The notes under the pieces are model-generated. The model searched no databases. It was given only the letters and a program-made list of their open reading frames with translations, and was not told where the DNA came from. The translations under genes and the position numbers were made by a program. Shown in pieces: positions 11,717 through 17,701 of a DNA stretch of 46,180 nucleotides. The DNA lies in contig JAHFKT010000002.1 in NCBI GenBank assembly GCA_023245235.1, positions 16,803 through 62,982 on the forward strand. The letters are read 5' to 3'. The first letter of the stretch is position 1. Each line of letters starts with the position of its first letter. This stretch comes from Candidatus Yanofskyibacteriota bacterium (GTDB lineage: Bacteria > Patescibacteriota > Minisyncoccia > 2-02-FULL-40-12 > GWA2-44-9).

Positions 11717-13591
11717 TTAATAGGACAATATGATATGGACCCGGCTCCGGTCGTGCGGAATTGACCTGACCCATAGCGGGGACAAAAGGACATTGGCTGA
11801 CGCGACATCCGGAAGGCCCTTCAGGTAATCCCGGATCTGAGTGCCATTTTTACCTATCAGGTCCGATATAAGCCGCTCCTGGTCTATCTTTTTGAATCCC
11901 GGACCTTTGACCGAAACGGTGAAGCTCAGGGCGTTCGTGATCGGATTGAACTGGATGTTCTGGTATTCCACGGCCAAAGAGTCGGCCCGTGCGACCAGGC
12001 TGTACTTAGCGTCGACATATTGGCTGATAAGCCCCTGAAGGTCAGACTCTTTGAATCCGACGGTTTTGAGCGAGCCGGCGATATTCATAGTGAACGTATC
12101 GGCGGCATCATCGACCGCGGCCGTTGAATCGACCTTGTCGACATTGACCTGGGAATCGCCGATGACCTTCAATCCGGCGATCTCCGACTTCAGTTCGTCG
12201 CTGACCGACGTCTTCAGCCGGTCCGTCAATGTGTCTTTGGCCTGGCTGTAATCGCCGGCCGCCACGACGCTTGCCTTACCGCTGGTGCCGCCGTGCATCG
12301 CGGCATCGGATTGGCCGTAAATGTTTTCGTACTTTACCGCGTCTCCTTTTTCGTGGAATGCGGGGATGGTGAATGTTCCGGCGGCGATATTAAAATCCTG
12401 GCCGGCTTTATCGGCTATGACCTGAATGATGACCTTGCCCGGCACCGTGGAATTTTTAGCGGCCGGAACTATCACTCCCTGCAGGGTGTGGAAGATATGA
12501 TGATCCGCCGACTCAAAGCGCGTCGTGGCGACCAACTGCTGGGCGGCGGAAGTTTTATTATACGCGGTAATGATACCGCGGGCCTTCTGGGCGACGTCCT
12601 GCGATCCGGTCGCATGGAAATCCTGCGATACCTTTTTTTCGATCGTGAACAGCTGCCCCGGGATCTTCAGGTCGCCGACGCTTACCGACGAAACCGTGTC
12701 GGCCGCGGTCACGTTCAATTTAAGGTCGAGAGGTTCCGATTGAGGCTTGATGGTGATCTCGGCGGTTCCGGTCGAAATGTATATGACGACGCCGAACAGT
12801 ACCAGCGCGACTGCGCCAAAGCCGACCATCGTACGATGGTAGCCGTTTTTGGGCGTGAACTTCTTGACCGAAAGTTTGGGTCCGGGCCATGAGGACCAGA
12901 AACTCGGTATCGCTTTCTTAGCCGGCATGACGGACGTGCCTGATTGCCAGACGGTTTTTATCTCATCCAGCGCCCGCCGTTCAAGGGCCTCGCTTTTAAA
13001 ATCATGGTGAACATCTATGGGAGCCCGTTTTTCACGGACAGCGGAAATTTTCACATCCCGCTTTTTATCATAATCCACCTGAACGATATCCTGCATCTTG
13101 CGGGAAGGGGCGGCCGGTGCTTCGATTTCGTCCTCCTCATCTTGTCCGCCGTCATCGGCCGGTTGTTCGTCAATCGCCTGCTCATCCGGAACTTCCGGCC
13201 GCGAGGGTTCAGGCACCGGCTTTGGTTGAACGACCGGCGCCGGAGTTTGTTCGTAGAAATCTTCAATCTCGTTGACCATACTGATGGAGCCCGATTCACT
13301 GCGGGGCGTGCCGGACTTCCTGACCGGCGAGGATGAGCGCGTCAACAGGACGTCAAAGCCGTATTTTTTGGCCATTTCGTTGAGTTCCGCGTTCGAACAA
13401 AGAAATGAAACGGCCTTGCCGAGCTGTTTTGTTTCCTTCTTGAGCTCGGAGAAATGCTCTTCTTTTTGAAATGCTTTCGAACGTTTGGGCAGGACGAAGA
13501 TAACCTCCTCGGCCGGCGTTGCTTTGAAGAGTTCGAGGATCTCCTTAAAGGAGTCATCCTTTAAAACATTGATAATCTTTGTTGAAGCCAT
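11717..13591 (-). CDS. membrane-anchored protein resembling baseplate-J-like proteins
   Basis: 624 residues. Residues about 1-90 form a small alpha/beta domain (STKIINVLKDDSFKEILELF, EVIFVLPKRS); about 95-240 is an acidic, Pro-rich, probably disordered linker; one transmembrane helix follows (VGFGAVALVLFGVVIYIST, about 262-280), and the rest is a long beta-rich extracellular part beginning GTAEITIKPQSEPLDLKLNV. That part resembles the baseplate J/gp47-like proteins I know from Patescibacteria genomes, including the VATTRFESADHHIF segment. Function unknown; a cell-surface or envelope-spanning apparatus role has been supposed for relatives. It starts 23 bases after dus ends and is likely co-transcribed. 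Confidence 0.75.
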   Translation of the reverse strand: MASTKIINVLKDDSFKEILELFKATPAEEVIFVLPKRSKAFQKEEHFSELKKETKQLGKAVSFLCSNAELNEMAKKYGFDVLLTRSSSPVRKSGTPRSESGSISMVNEIEDFYEQTPAPVVQPKPVPEPSRPEVPDEQAIDEQPADDGGQDEEDEIEAPAAPSRKMQDIVQVDYDKKRDVKISAVREKRAPIDVHHDFKSEALERRALDEIKTVWQSGTSVMPAKKAIPSFWSSWPGPKLSVKKFTPKNGYHRTMVGFGAVALVLFGVVIYISTGTAEITIKPQSEPLDLKLNVTAADTVSSVSVGDLKIPGQLFTIEKKVSQDFHATGSQDVAQKARGIITAYNKTSAAQQLVATTRFESADHHIFHTLQGVIVPAAKNSTVPGKVIIQVIADKAGQDFNIAAGTFTIPAFHEKGDAVKYENIYGQSDAAMHGGTSGKASVVAAGDYSQAKDTLTDRLKTSVSDELKSEIAGLKVIGDSQVNVDKVDSTAAVDDAADTFTMNIAGSLKTVGFKESDLQGLISQYVDAKYSLVARADSLAVEYQNIQFNPITNALSFTVSVKGPGFKKIDQERLISDLIGKNGTQIRDYLKGLPDVASANVLLSPLWVRSIPHDRSRVHIILSY

Positions 13592-13614: not shown

Positions 13615-14793
13615 TTATTCGGGCTGAGTCTTTTCGCGTTTTTCCTCGCGGTCGATCTCGAGTTCTTCCTCCTCGGGCGTAGTGTCGGCGGGATCGCCGT
13701 CCAGATCGCCGGTATATTCGGAATCAATTCCTGTCGGGTTCGGCTTTTTATCCTGATCCTGCTCTGACTCATCCTGAACTCTGTCGAATTCTTTGGCGAC
13801 GTCTTCCTCACTGACTTTTGGTTTAGGTTTATTCATATTGCCAGTATACCACGGGTCAAGTATTCCATCTATATCTTCAGCACGCCGAACAGTCATGAGA
13901 GCTGCCCTTAATTCTTTGGCGCCGTCAAAATCATTGATATATACCTTTATGAACCTTTTCATGACATCGAAATTTTTGTCCGAACCCCACAATTGAGTAA
14001 ACAATCCGATATGTTTTTTCATGAGAGCTATCTTATCCCGGGGTGTTTTTGAGGCAGGATCCACGGCCGGGTCAAAGAACCAGGGATTCAAAAAAACTCC
14101 CCGGCCGATCATGATGCCGTCGAGGCCGTAGCGGCTCGCCTTCTCGATTCCTTCAGCATGGCTCATGACATCACCGTTGCCGACGATCGGAATGCCGGCT
14201 TTACGGCACAGCACGGCCGCTTTACCGATCTCGTCCCAGTGGGCGGGAACTTTGGACATTTCCTTCATCGTCCGGCCGTGAATAATGATAGCGGCCGGAC
14301 CCGCTTCTATAAGATGCGAGATCCATTCTTCGGTGATTATTTTATTGTAGCCGATGCGGGTCTTGACCGAGACCGGCAGACCGCCGGCCCCGCGCTTGGT
14401 CTCACGGATTATTTCTTTAGCCAGTTCCGGATTGAGTATCAGACCGGCCCCGCTGTCCTGCTTCACTATTTTTCCGGCCGGACAGCCCATATTGATATCG
14501 ATGCCGTCAAAGCCGAGTTCTTTGGCGAGCTGAGCGCATTTGAAAAAGTTCTCCGGTTTGGAACCGAAAAACTGGGCCACGACCGGCCGTTCATTATCGG
14601 AGAATGCAAGATGCGGAAGAAGTTTCGGCCGGCCCTTCTCGGAACAGAGTCCGTCGCATGATACGAACTCCGTAAATAAAACATCCGGCTTGCCGCATGA
14701 GACCACGATCTGCCGGAAGGCCATATCGGTCACATCGGCCATCGGCGCCAGAATAAAAAACGGTCTTTTGAGTTGTTGCCAGAAATTTTTCAT
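13615..14793 (-). CDS. dus: tRNA-dihydrouridine synthase with acidic C-terminal tail
   Basis: 392 residues; the enzyme part is about residues 1-320. It starts with FILAPMADVTDMAFRQIV (FMN-binding opening), carries the catalytic Cys104 in DINMGCPAGKIVKQDSGAGL, then VSVKTRIGY, IIIHGRT and the FMN phosphate site GLDGIMIGRGVFLNPWFF. It reduces uridines in the tRNA D loop using FMN and NADPH. Residues about 330-392 are an added acidic, disordered tail full of Asp, Glu and Pro, not found in standard Dus proteins. Which of the DusA/B/C types it belongs to cannot be fixed here. A TATAAT box lies 15 bases before the ATG. Confidence 0.93.
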   Translation of the reverse strand: MKNFWQQLKRPFFILAPMADVTDMAFRQIVVSCGKPDVLFTEFVSCDGLCSEKGRPKLLPHLAFSDNERPVVAQFFGSKPENFFKCAQLAKELGFDGIDINMGCPAGKIVKQDSGAGLILNPELAKEIIRETKRGAGGLPVSVKTRIGYNKIITEEWISHLIEAGPAAIIIHGRTMKEMSKVPAHWDEIGKAAVLCRKAGIPIVGNGDVMSHAEGIEKASRYGLDGIMIGRGVFLNPWFFDPAVDPASKTPRDKIALMKKHIGLFTQLWGSDKNFDVMKRFIKVYINDFDGAKELRAALMTVRRAEDIDGILDPWYTGNMNKPKPKVSEEDVAKEFDRVQDESEQDQDKKPNPTGIDSEYTGDLDGDPADTTPEEEELEIDREEKREKTQPE

Positions 14794-14829: not shown

Positions 14830-15381
14830 TTAGGCTCGGGCGGTGTCTGATTGAAGCTGAAGCTCCGACTTATGACGCTCCAGCGGAATATACTCGTGAG
14901 CCAGTCTGACCAGTTCGCGGGATGCCTGTTTCTCCCATGAGACCACGATGGTATGGATCTTTCTGCGGCGCTCCTGGACCCGTTTCAGTAACGGGCAGAA
15001 ATCGCCGTCGCCGGAAAAGAGCATGATGGTGTCGACGGGACCGTTGTGGAGAGTGTCCATCACGTCGATGGCGATCTCCACATCATGATTGCCGAACGAA
15101 TGCACGGTCCCCTTTTGCGTGTCGTATACCCTCCGGATCTGCTTTTCGCGGACCGTGAATCCTTTGTCTTTGAGCATGTGCCCGAACCCGCTGCCATGCC
15201 GCTCATGTTCGAGCCGCATGATGTCGAAATCGATGATATAGATGAACCGGTTGGTAACGGTACCGAACCGGTCGGTCAGTTCGATCAGGCGGTCAAAATC
15301 CATGTCCCAGCCGCGGTTGGTCGGGCAGATGTTATGGAAATCAATGAATACGCTGACGAGTGCCTGTTCCGGCATTTTCAA
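14830..15381 (-). CDS. NYN-domain ribonuclease-like protein
   Basis: 183 residues. The PIN-like NYN fold is shown by the acidic residues at expected places: VFIDFHNI (Asp14), the NHDVEIAIDVMDTL helix with two Asp, and LFSGDGDFCPLLKRV. NYN/LabA-like proteins are metal-dependent ribonucleases or RNA-binding relatives. There is no extra domain. It sits between dus and the structured RNA at 15.4-15.8 kb, transcribed in the same direction; a processing link between this enzyme and that RNA is possible but only inferred from proximity. Confidence 0.85.
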   Translation of the reverse strand: MKMPEQALVSVFIDFHNICPTNRGWDMDFDRLIELTDRFGTVTNRFIYIIDFDIMRLEHERHGSGFGHMLKDKGFTVREKQIRRVYDTQKGTVHSFGNHDVEIAIDVMDTLHNGPVDTIMLFSGDGDFCPLLKRVQERRRKIHTIVVSWEKQASRELVRLAHEYIPLERHKSELQLQSDTARA

Positions 15382-15424
15382 TGTCCATTGATGCCCATAT
15401 ATTACAATTAAATTCTGATTTGGT

Positions 15425-15763
15425 CAAATAAAGCAAAGAGCGCCTGTGGAGGCGCTTTGCAAAGAACCAGTCGAGGATGCCTGTGCGGGCTCATCCGTCC
15501 CGCCAGCATGGCCGCAAAACGATGTTGTTGTGCGGAGCGGCAATGCTGTGTTTAGGCTTACCTGTGATCAGCAGGTGGATTCCCTTGGGTTTCGTCGGTA
15601 TTGCCCGGCGTGACTTATGCCCGAGGTACTCAGGAGCCGGTTAGCTTGATCCTGCGATGGTTCAAGCAGATAGCCGGTCCTACAACCCCAGCCGGCACGG
15701 CTGGTTTGGCCTGATCCCGTCACTGGGACTCACTGTTGTTTTGCTCAACAGACATCCCTCGAC
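15425..15763 (-). ncRNA. structured non-coding RNA of unknown class, about 330 nt
   Basis: The two ends pair: GTCGAGGGATG at 15763-15753 with GCATCCTCGAC at 15480-15470, with one bulged G. Inside are perfect or near-perfect hairpins: 15733-15738/15746-15751; 15688-15693/15699-15704; a two-part helix 15637-15640/15674-15677 plus 15644-15649/15662-15667; and 15504-15515/15537-15548 with one mismatch. A TTGACG-18-TATCAT promoter points to a start at about 15763, the first base of the closing helix, and a hairpin at 15433-15460 ends it. I find no RNase P, tmRNA, SRP or 6S signatures. Segments 15676-15689 and 15625-15634 resemble parts of 23S rRNA domain I, by memory. Confidence 0.7.
15433..15460 (-). 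terminator. terminator of the structured RNA
   Basis: GCAAAG-CGCC pairs with GGCG-CTTTGC (two-base bulge), then TTTATTTG on the minus strand. Confidence 0.6.
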
Positions 15764-15770
15764 AAGATCT

Positions 15771-15800
15771 ATGATAACAGAGCCCGGAGCCGGTCGTCAA
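15771..15800 (-). promoter_or_regulatory. promoter of the structured RNA
   Basis: Minus strand: -35 TTGACG (15795-15800), 18-base spacer, -10 TATCAT (15771-15776). The -35 lies only six bases beyond the alaS stop, so the RNA has its own promoter and is not simply an alaS tail. Confidence 0.7.
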
Positions 15801-15805
15801 AGATG

Positions 15806-17665
15806 CTAGTCCACAACTGCACGGATGCGCCGGGCGCCGCCGGAAACCGACTCTTCCTTAGTGATAGTGATGCGGCCGATCTCGCCGGTATGGGTCACGT
15901 GGGGGCCGCCGCAGAGCTCCCGGCTGAACCAGTTCTTTTCGTCGCCGATGGTGTAGACCTTCACCCGCGGCGGATATTTAAGCTTAAAGAAAGCCGAAGC
16001 GCCGGAATCCAGTGCTTCCTTCAGATCCATCTCTTGAGCGGTCACCGGCAGATCTTTGGCTACGATATCGTTGGCGATATCTTCGGCCTGCTTCAATTCT
16101 TCCGGAGTGACCTTGCGCGGAAAAGTAAAATCAAAACGCAAACGCTCAGCCGTGATGTCCGAACCGGCCTGGGGTAACTTCTGGCCGAGCACTTTCTGAA
16201 GCGCGGCGACAATAATATGGGTCGCGGTATGGAGGCGGGTTTTCTTCTTCATTTCTTCGGCATCCCCCGCCGTCAGGTCGCCTTCTTTCATTCCGTGTCC
16301 GCCGAATTTCTTCCCGGCTCCGGCGCGGGATATCTCCTGATGGCGCTTTCGTTCTGTCTCAAAATCTTCCCTGGTCAGCCCCGAAGCTTTGTTCCGGGCG
16401 ACCTCGCGGATGACCTCGAACGGCAGGCCGAAGCTTTCATATAACCGGAACGCGGAGACGCCGTCGACAGAATCGAGCTTTTCAAGTTCCCGAAGACCGT
16501 TCTTGAATGTTTTCTGGAATTTTTCATTCTCCGCGTCGAATGCCGATTTTATTTTCTCGATATTCAATTCGGGATAGTAGGCACCGCAGAGCTCAACGAT
16601 CTTTTCAAAGATGTTATGGATGGCTTCGAGTTCGATACCGTTCAGATGGCATTGGACGATGACCCGGCGCATCAGGCGGCGCAGAACATAACCCTGCTCT
16701 TTATTCGAGGGCACTATGCCGTCAGCGATAAGAAACGCCGCCGCCCGGCTATGGTCGGTAATGATGCGTTTGACCCGTTCATCAACGCCGTCATCCGGCA
16801 GTATCTGTATGAGCGGCTCGAAAACGTCCGTCGAGAATATGTCCGGTTGGTTTTGTGCCGCCGCCGTGATCCTTTCAAAACCGCCGCCGAAATCAACATT
16901 CCGCTGCTTGAGGAGTTCGAAAGTTCCGTCAGGCAGTTTTTTGTACTCCATAAAAACGCTGTTGCCGATCTCCAAAAATCTTCCGCAGTCGCAATTGGGA
17001 TGGCATTCTTTGCCGTATGAAGGGTCATGAGGAACATCAAATTGATAGAATATCTCCGAATCTGGGCCCCCGGGCTCCCCCGCGGGCATTGTGTCCGGCC
17101 TCCCGGCCCGTGACCACCAGTTCTTTTCGGCACCATAAAAAAATATGCGGCTATCCTTCATGCCGACCTTTGATGCGTTGGCGAGAGTTATGAGATCGGC
17201 CTCTTTCGCATCAATGCCGGCCTCTTCGAACAGCTGTTTCCAGATAGCCGGGGATTCCGTGTCTCTGGGGATGCCGTTCTTTTCGTCACCGGCAAAAACC
17301 GTCACATAGAGCCGCGCCGGATCAATGCCGACCTCTTTCGTCAGAAATTCAAATATCCAGGCCAGTTGTTCTTTCTTCCAATAATCGCCGAATGACCAGT
17401 TGCCGAGCATCTCAAAGAATGTCGTATGCCGGTTATCGCCCACCTCATCAATATCGTCGGCCCGAAAGGACTTTTGAATATCGGCGATGCGTTTCCCGAG
17501 CGGGTGGGGCTCTCCCAGAAGATACGGCATCATCGGCTGCATGCCTGATCCGGTAAAAAGCGTGGTCGCGTCATTTGCGGGCAACAGTGAAGACGAGGGC
17601 ACGATGACGTGCTTTCGGGCTTCGAAAAAATCCAGAAATTTTTGGCGTATCTCATGGCTGGTCAT
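15806..17665 (-). CDS. alaS: alanyl-tRNA synthetase, short form without C-terminal domain
   Basis: 619 residues from the ATG at 17665 (an in-frame ATG 12 codons upstream lies beyond the -10 box and is rejected). The class II catalytic core has FFEMLGNWSFGDYWK (motif 2 region, 83-97) and GNSVFMEY; a Cys cluster ECHPNCDC (220-227) is typical of a subset of short AlaS enzymes. The editing domain is intact, with His479-x3-His483 in HTATH and Cys585-x3-His589 in CGGPH. The oligomerising C-Ala domain of about 250 residues is missing. It charges tRNA-Ala. Promoter TTGAAT-17-TAGAGT ends seven bases before the ATG, so the message may be leaderless. Confidence 0.96.
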   Translation of the reverse strand: MTSHEIRQKFLDFFEARKHVIVPSSSLLPANDATTLFTGSGMQPMMPYLLGEPHPLGKRIADIQKSFRADDIDEVGDNRHTTFFEMLGNWSFGDYWKKEQLAWIFEFLTKEVGIDPARLYVTVFAGDEKNGIPRDTESPAIWKQLFEEAGIDAKEADLITLANASKVGMKDSRIFFYGAEKNWWSRAGRPDTMPAGEPGGPDSEIFYQFDVPHDPSYGKECHPNCDCGRFLEIGNSVFMEYKKLPDGTFELLKQRNVDFGGGFERITAAAQNQPDIFSTDVFEPLIQILPDDGVDERVKRIITDHSRAAAFLIADGIVPSNKEQGYVLRRLMRRVIVQCHLNGIELEAIHNIFEKIVELCGAYYPELNIEKIKSAFDAENEKFQKTFKNGLRELEKLDSVDGVSAFRLYESFGLPFEVIREVARNKASGLTREDFETERKRHQEISRAGAGKKFGGHGMKEGDLTAGDAEEMKKKTRLHTATHIIVAALQKVLGQKLPQAGSDITAERLRFDFTFPRKVTPEELKQAEDIANDIVAKDLPVTAQEMDLKEALDSGASAFFKLKYPPRVKVYTIGDEKNWFSRELCGGPHVTHTGEIGRITITKEESVSGGARRIRAVVD

Positions 17666-17672
17666 TGTGGTT

Positions 17673-17701
17673 ACTCTATCAAAAATCCCGTGTTCATTCA
17701 A
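17673..17701 (-). promoter_or_regulatory. alaS promoter, leaderless start
   Basis: Minus strand: TTGAAT (17696-17701), 17-base spacer, TAGAGT (17673-17678), seven bases before the alaS ATG. Confidence 0.5.

Follow-up and report, generated by a model that had tools for sequence, protein, structure and literature searches.

A free-standing RNA gene next to alaS in a Candidatus Yanofskyibacteriota bacterium, very likely derived from domain I of 23S rRNA and possibly a mimic of the ribosome

The window, i.e., the whole stretch of 46,180 nucleotides analyzed here, carries on its minus strand a stand-alone RNA gene of ~294 nt (15763 to 15470). It lies between alaS and a gene for a NYN-domain protein, a putative RNase, past which dus is found (13615-14793). 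Downstream of dus there is a 624-aa protein (11717-13591, minus strand) without Pfam match and with a hydrophobic stretch in its middle. The elements of the RNA gene and its immediate neighbors are as follows.

15806-17701, minus strand: alaS, the upstream gene (Pfam tRNA-synt_2c and tRNA_SAD)
15795-15800, minus strand: -35 box TTGACG, directly past the alaS stop
15771-15776, minus strand: -10 box TATCAT, with TG just before it
15748-15763, minus strand: 5' strand of the closing helix P1, GUCGAGGGAUGUCUGU
15470-15484, minus strand: 3' strand of the closing helix P1, ACAGGCAUCCUCGAC
15439-15456, minus strand: intrinsic terminator hairpin, then a U-rich tail
14830-15381, minus strand: NYN-domain gene (Pfam NYN), directly downstream of the RNA

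The promoter, TTGACG-18-TATCAT (minus strand, 15800 to 15771), is of the sigma-70 type and matches at 10 of 12 positions, while shuffled sequences contained a mean of 0.3 promoter-like sites. Its -35 box follows directly on the alaS stop codon (15806-15808). Transcription probably starts at 15763, the base that opens the closing helix, in which 15748-15763 pairs with 15470-15484 (15 pairs and one bulge). The fold energy of 15770-15425 was -137.2 kcal/mol, while shuffled sequences averaged -115.1 (z = -4.6), and none of 100 shuffles did as well. No open reading frame of 60 aa or more overlaps 15412-15802. By computation, this is an independent RNA gene with its own promoter and terminator; there is no transcript evidence. 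The original prediction, which described an independent structured RNA with this promoter, a start at the base of a helix, a terminator and no coding frame, held in all these points.

It held as well in assigning the RNA to no recognized class. At the Rfam gathering threshold there was no match to the RNA, and with E values up to 10 only three chance matches appeared. The models for raiA, 6S, tmRNA, RNase P and SRP do not match it, ARAGORN found no tmRNA at the locus, and even the bacterial LSU rRNA model (RF02541) does not detect it; nor does the RNA lie within a complete LSU gene or an rRNA operon. Only size and structure speak for a divergent member of one of the known large classes (raiA, 6S, tmRNA, RNase P or SRP). 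However, the negative results of Rfam even at E = 10 and of ARAGORN, together with the location of the RNase P of the genome elsewhere (contig C18 of the source genome, G000), all but exclude this explanation, and the divergent raiA that the original prediction had offered as an alternative is not supported. The likeness to raiA motif RNA and other large bacterial non-coding RNAs is limited to being a structured intergenic RNA of ~200–300 nt; a covariance-model match is missing. As a separate observation, the RNase P RNA of this genome (G000:C18:10528-10960) is divergent and scores 72 bits, under the Rfam gathering score of 100.

A DNA similarity search of 95 relatives gave a single significant match, located in a Ca. 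Yanofskybacteria MAG of another genus of the same family (G010; contig CAIKUK010000009.1 in GTDB). In G010, alaS and dus likewise flank the RNA, which is on the same strand and has a terminator, a promoter at the matching place (TTGACA-16-TACTAT) and the same closing stem, here with G-C to G-U changes. The NYN-domain gene is not present at the G010 locus and follows the RNA in the source genome only. The two RNAs are identical at 61% of the aligned bases, whereas the fourfold-degenerate sites of alaS are only 34% identical (the alaS protein, 55%). From this difference we infer purifying selection, and the computation shows that the RNA has been kept by it since the two genera split, with the reservation that only two sequences are available. 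Identical runs of 18 and 13 nt fall at nucleotides that correspond to junctions of the 23S rRNA. Conservation of the helices in related genomes, proposed as a check in the original prediction, was partly confirmed: one homologue at the same locus keeps them, and two sequences are too few for R-scape.

The relationship with 23S rRNA was apparent from both directions. We built a covariance model from the two RNAs only (R1) and then added the 23S topology to it (R2). Apart from the two RNAs, practically everything these models matched in ~700 Patescibacteria genomes was 23S domain I. Searching 380 genomes of the phylum and 384 of the class, the best non-self matches were 23S domain I, the strongest with 39–61 bits over the full model, and Rfam confirmed the matched loci as LSU rRNA. 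Most 23S scores rose by ~9–19 bits from R1 to R2, with a best E value of ~4e-19 per genome. R2 also matches the 23S of Bacillota and Bacteroidota, i.e., Geobacillus (55 bits), Mesobacillus, Priestia, Prevotella and C. difficile, and it does not match the core of the source genome's own 23S. The few remaining weak matches, in G085 and G117 (~18 bits), are not LSU and were put down to chance. The one in G117 (18–19 bits) was considered as a further homologue and rejected, as it overlaps a coding frame and is not LSU. In the reciprocal test, an HMM of 23S domain I built from seven other Patescibacteria had one significant match over the whole window, at 15742-15674 on the minus strand (E = 7.9e-8), together with a second, weak collinear segment; it finds the G010 RNA too (E = 1.2e-7). 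Besides, a BLASTN search of 7.3 Gb of plasmids with the RNA as query returned six weak matches (E 0.02–0.3), all at RNA bases 44–89, and the three that were checked are 23S.

In the alignment, the match begins in AGAAAGCAA..GCGAUUCCC (H12/H13), covers H16, H18, the base of H19, H20 and the hairpin that follows, and stops at AAGCCUAAACAC. The original prediction had pointed to two stretches resembling 23S domain I (15676-15689 and 15625-15634); both are real and are included in this longer collinear match. Helix numbers are those in general use for 23S rRNA, and the 23S pairing was taken from the Rfam structure line. When the RNAs were aligned with trimmed 23S sequences by MAFFT, H20 was misplaced, and for this reason no joint model was built. 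Read from 5' to 3', the parts of the RNA inside the closing helix are the following.

15714-15729, minus strand: H13-like hairpin, shortened, lacking the near-universal 23S loop GAGUAGCGGCGAGCGAA
15709-15712, minus strand: H16-like 5' strand AGGC (AGCC in 23S), pairing with GCCU at 15554-15557
15688-15704, minus strand: H18-like hairpin CCAGCC-GUGCC-GGCUGG
15676-15688, minus strand: GGGUUGUAGGACC, canonical 23S junction motif, not present in the source genome's own 23S
15632-15681, minus strand: H19-like arm AGGA.CCGG/CCGG.UCCU, reduced to a simple hairpin
15626-15634, minus strand: CCUGAGUAC, canonical motif of the 23S H19/H20 junction
15583-15626, minus strand: H20-like hairpin CCUcGGG...CCCaAGG, with inner GUC/GAC
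15560-15576, minus strand: hairpin ACCUG...CAGGU, the 23S hairpin after GAAUC, with two two-sided changes relative to G010
15548-15559, minus strand: AAGCCUAAACAC (AAGGCUAAAUAC in 23S), including the 3' strand of H16
15505-15547, minus strand: 3' hairpin A, for which no 23S counterpart was found (G010 also has a hairpin here, of different sequence)
15485-15503, minus strand: 3' hairpin B, its loop ending in the conserved AUGAG(C)

Compared with bacterial 23S domain I, H12 to H20 (RF02541), the RNA has the same junction motifs in the same order (AAACC, GGGGUUGUAGGAC, CCUGAGUAC, GAAUC and AAGSCUAAAYAC) and the same topology of H13, H16, H18, H19, H20 and the next hairpin. The sequence of the unpaired nucleotides in the junction is almost fully retained. 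It differs in being a separate gene without the other parts of 23S, in the deletion of the H13 loop and of the outer arm of H19, in the swapped H16, and in the new closing stem and two 3' hairpins. Neither of the two RNAs has the loop GAGUAGCGGCGAGCGAA or a complete H19 arm; from GGAC to CCUGAG this arm takes ~40 nt in the RNA against 98–120 nt in the 23S sequences compared. In what has been lost, these two elements are joined by all of 23S outside this part of the domain. The new hairpins share between both RNAs a conserved stretch, AUGAGC...GCACAG.

The pairing supports the same picture. With a 23S-type H16 enforced, the two RNAs assume the 23S layout at a cost of 0.1 and 0.4 kcal/mol. For the pairs of H16, H18, the base of H19, H20 and the hairpin after it, 28 of 29 are standard in the window RNA and 29 of 29 in G010, that is, 57 of 58 pair cells (98.3%), against 10–55% when partners are slid by one to three columns. 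Relative to 23S, H16 shows a compensated swap of C-G to G-C. A shuffle control of the pair changes (121 of 500) is uninformative with two sequences, and we take the evidence from pair changes as support and not as proof.

On these grounds it is very likely that the core of the RNA is 23S rRNA domain I from H12/H13 to H20, and very likely too that the whole is a paralogue of a 23S domain that functions as RNA; the stand-alone rRNA-domain-like RNA suggested in the original prediction held. Convergence, by which an unrelated RNA would have evolved the same junction for the same protein without descent from 23S, can claim that the H16 swap and the missing loops are not those of a simple copy. Against it stand the collinear match over H12/H13, H16, H18, H19, H20 and the next hairpin, and its extension over the non-junction stretch AGAAAGCAA..GCGAUUCCC, and we consider it very improbable. 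Hardly more credible is a decaying rRNA pseudogene without function. The 23S origin and the occurrence in only 2 of 28 family genomes would fit it, but neutral decay is not met by 61% identity where neutral sites retain 34%, and the promoter, closing stem and terminator are found in both genomes, together with compensated changes.

The source genome has a 23S of its own (G000:C14), complete over the Rfam model (1–2925) and with its own H13 loop, H16, H19 and H20. The possibility that domain I had been lost from this gene was therefore rejected, and the complete 23S leaves no gap that the RNA would have to fill. This is the difference with the split or fragmented 23S rRNAs of some lineages, in which a piece of 23S is also encoded apart but is absent from the main 23S. 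Actually, the RNA is more canonical than the 23S of its own genome: the H18–H19 junction of the latter has drifted, as in relatives, to GGGGUAAUAGGGGUAG instead of the GGGGUUGUAGGACC kept in the RNA. Either the RNA split off before the drift of the 23S or it came from another lineage. The G010 MAG has no 23S at all, so the same comparison could not be made there.

An accessory rRNA fragment, entering some 50S subunits in trans to replace or supplement the divergent domain I, would be consistent with the canonical junction sequences kept in the RNA and lost from the 23S of the family. We regard it as unlikely, with a complete 23S present in the cell and an RNA in which the H13 loop and the outer arm of H19 are missing and whose closed stem would hinder insertion.

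Our preferred reading is that of a co-opted paralogue of a 23S domain that acts in trans as a mimic of the ribosome. Its functional part is inferred, and to the statement as a whole we assign a probability of roughly 0.45. The RNA would descend from H12–H20 of 23S domain I, with the new closing stem standing where the remainder of 23S would be. It would offer the domain I junction to a protein that ordinarily recognizes this part of 23S, whether a ribosomal protein or a factor in 50S assembly. By titrating or docking this protein, the RNA would couple its supply to ribosome assembly. Fragments of E. coli 23S domain I that compete for L4 would be a parallel, the mimic being here a dedicated RNA gene. 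The trans-acting mimic is placed first because the RNA keeps the parts of 23S involved in folding and protein contact, and because of the precedent of competition for L4: the S10 leader loses this protein to a 23S fragment (PMC10931766), and 23S domain I RNA competes for it (PMC7186457). L4, L22 and L24 are early binders at this end of 23S during assembly (PMC2672003). Even so, without binding data mimicry and titration remain an inferred mechanism, on which we lean slightly towards doubt. A mimic of the present 23S of the same cell would not be expected to keep GGGGUUGUAGGACC where that 23S has GGGGUAAUAGGGGUAG.

In E. coli, the minimal L4/L24 site is located in the outer arm of H19. Since the RNA lacks this arm, L4 and L24 are disfavored as targets, and another protein or an assembly factor could be the likelier one, a possibility that is again inferred and without binding data. 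A close functional analogue is the L4-binding leader of the E. coli S10 operon, an extra-ribosomal RNA mimic of 23S domain I and its rival in binding a ribosomal protein (PMC10931766, PMC7186457), as is proposed for the RNA described here. The leader, in contrast, is a cis-acting part of an mRNA with little sequence likeness to 23S, while our RNA is a predicted separate transcript with clear 23S sequence. There is a bolder version, which we consider unlikely, in which the RNA keeps the canonical junction to work in trans on ribosomes or ribosomal proteins that might be those of another cell, e.g., the host of a presumed epibiont.

The main rival to the ribosome mimic is an RNA derived from 23S with a function unrelated to ribosomes, the domain I fold being a scaffold and the closing stem and 3' hairpins (loop AUGAG) the functional parts. 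This remains possible. The 23S of the source genome has drifted from the motif kept in the RNA, and the conserved AUGAGC...GCACAG of the new hairpins is common to both RNAs. On the other side, the highest conservation is found exactly at the 23S junction nucleotides, so that the junction itself appears constrained.

To our knowledge, no independent gene made from a domain of 23S rRNA has been described, and structured bacterial RNAs of this size are rare. We found no Rfam family and no precedent in the literature searched for a free-standing 23S-domain RNA. Within these limits the gene lies outside the catalogued RNA families. If functional, it would indicate that domains of rRNA can be recruited to act in trans as RNAs of their own, and would provide a natural minimal construct of the domain I junction, with which to ask what proteins read it outside the ribosome.

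The RNA is rare. A covariance model search of 28 genomes of the family and 45 of the order gave no copy beyond the two, and none was found in the other 26 family genomes or in wider samples, which makes it dispensable, as far as can be judged from two sequences without expression data. Inspection of five further loci (L003, L005, L006, L012 and L019) revealed no second homologue. A conserved two-block pattern found only G010 and chance matches in GTDB contigs, and only chance matches in coding sequence in IMG/VR, where a second, more specific pattern found none; phage records had no match to the RNA. At the alaS/dus junction of the other family genomes with a readable alaS end (in G020 alaS lies at a contig end) the RNA is absent; alaS and dus are adjacent, or other small genes stand between them, or alaS is followed by another gene. 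Judged by alaS, the source genome is no nearer to G010 than to genomes without the RNA; therefore, either an ancestral gene was lost several times or it was gained repeatedly at a variable junction.

Other features of these genomes were noticed along the way. In the 23S genes of the family (L023, L078–L085) the near-universal motif GGGGUUGUAGGAC is changed to forms such as GGGGUAAUAGGGAUAGUAC, and those of the order (L078–L106) are often 3–6 kb long or in pieces through inserts. The source genome's own 23S spans ~3.4 kb (G000:C14:6860-10257), and an intron or insertion is likely. The alaS/dus junction in the family (L028–L053) is itself variable, and where it is open several relatives carry different small ORFs, often with hydrophobic products. 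This junction may be a small insertion hot spot, and the RNA one cargo gene among several.
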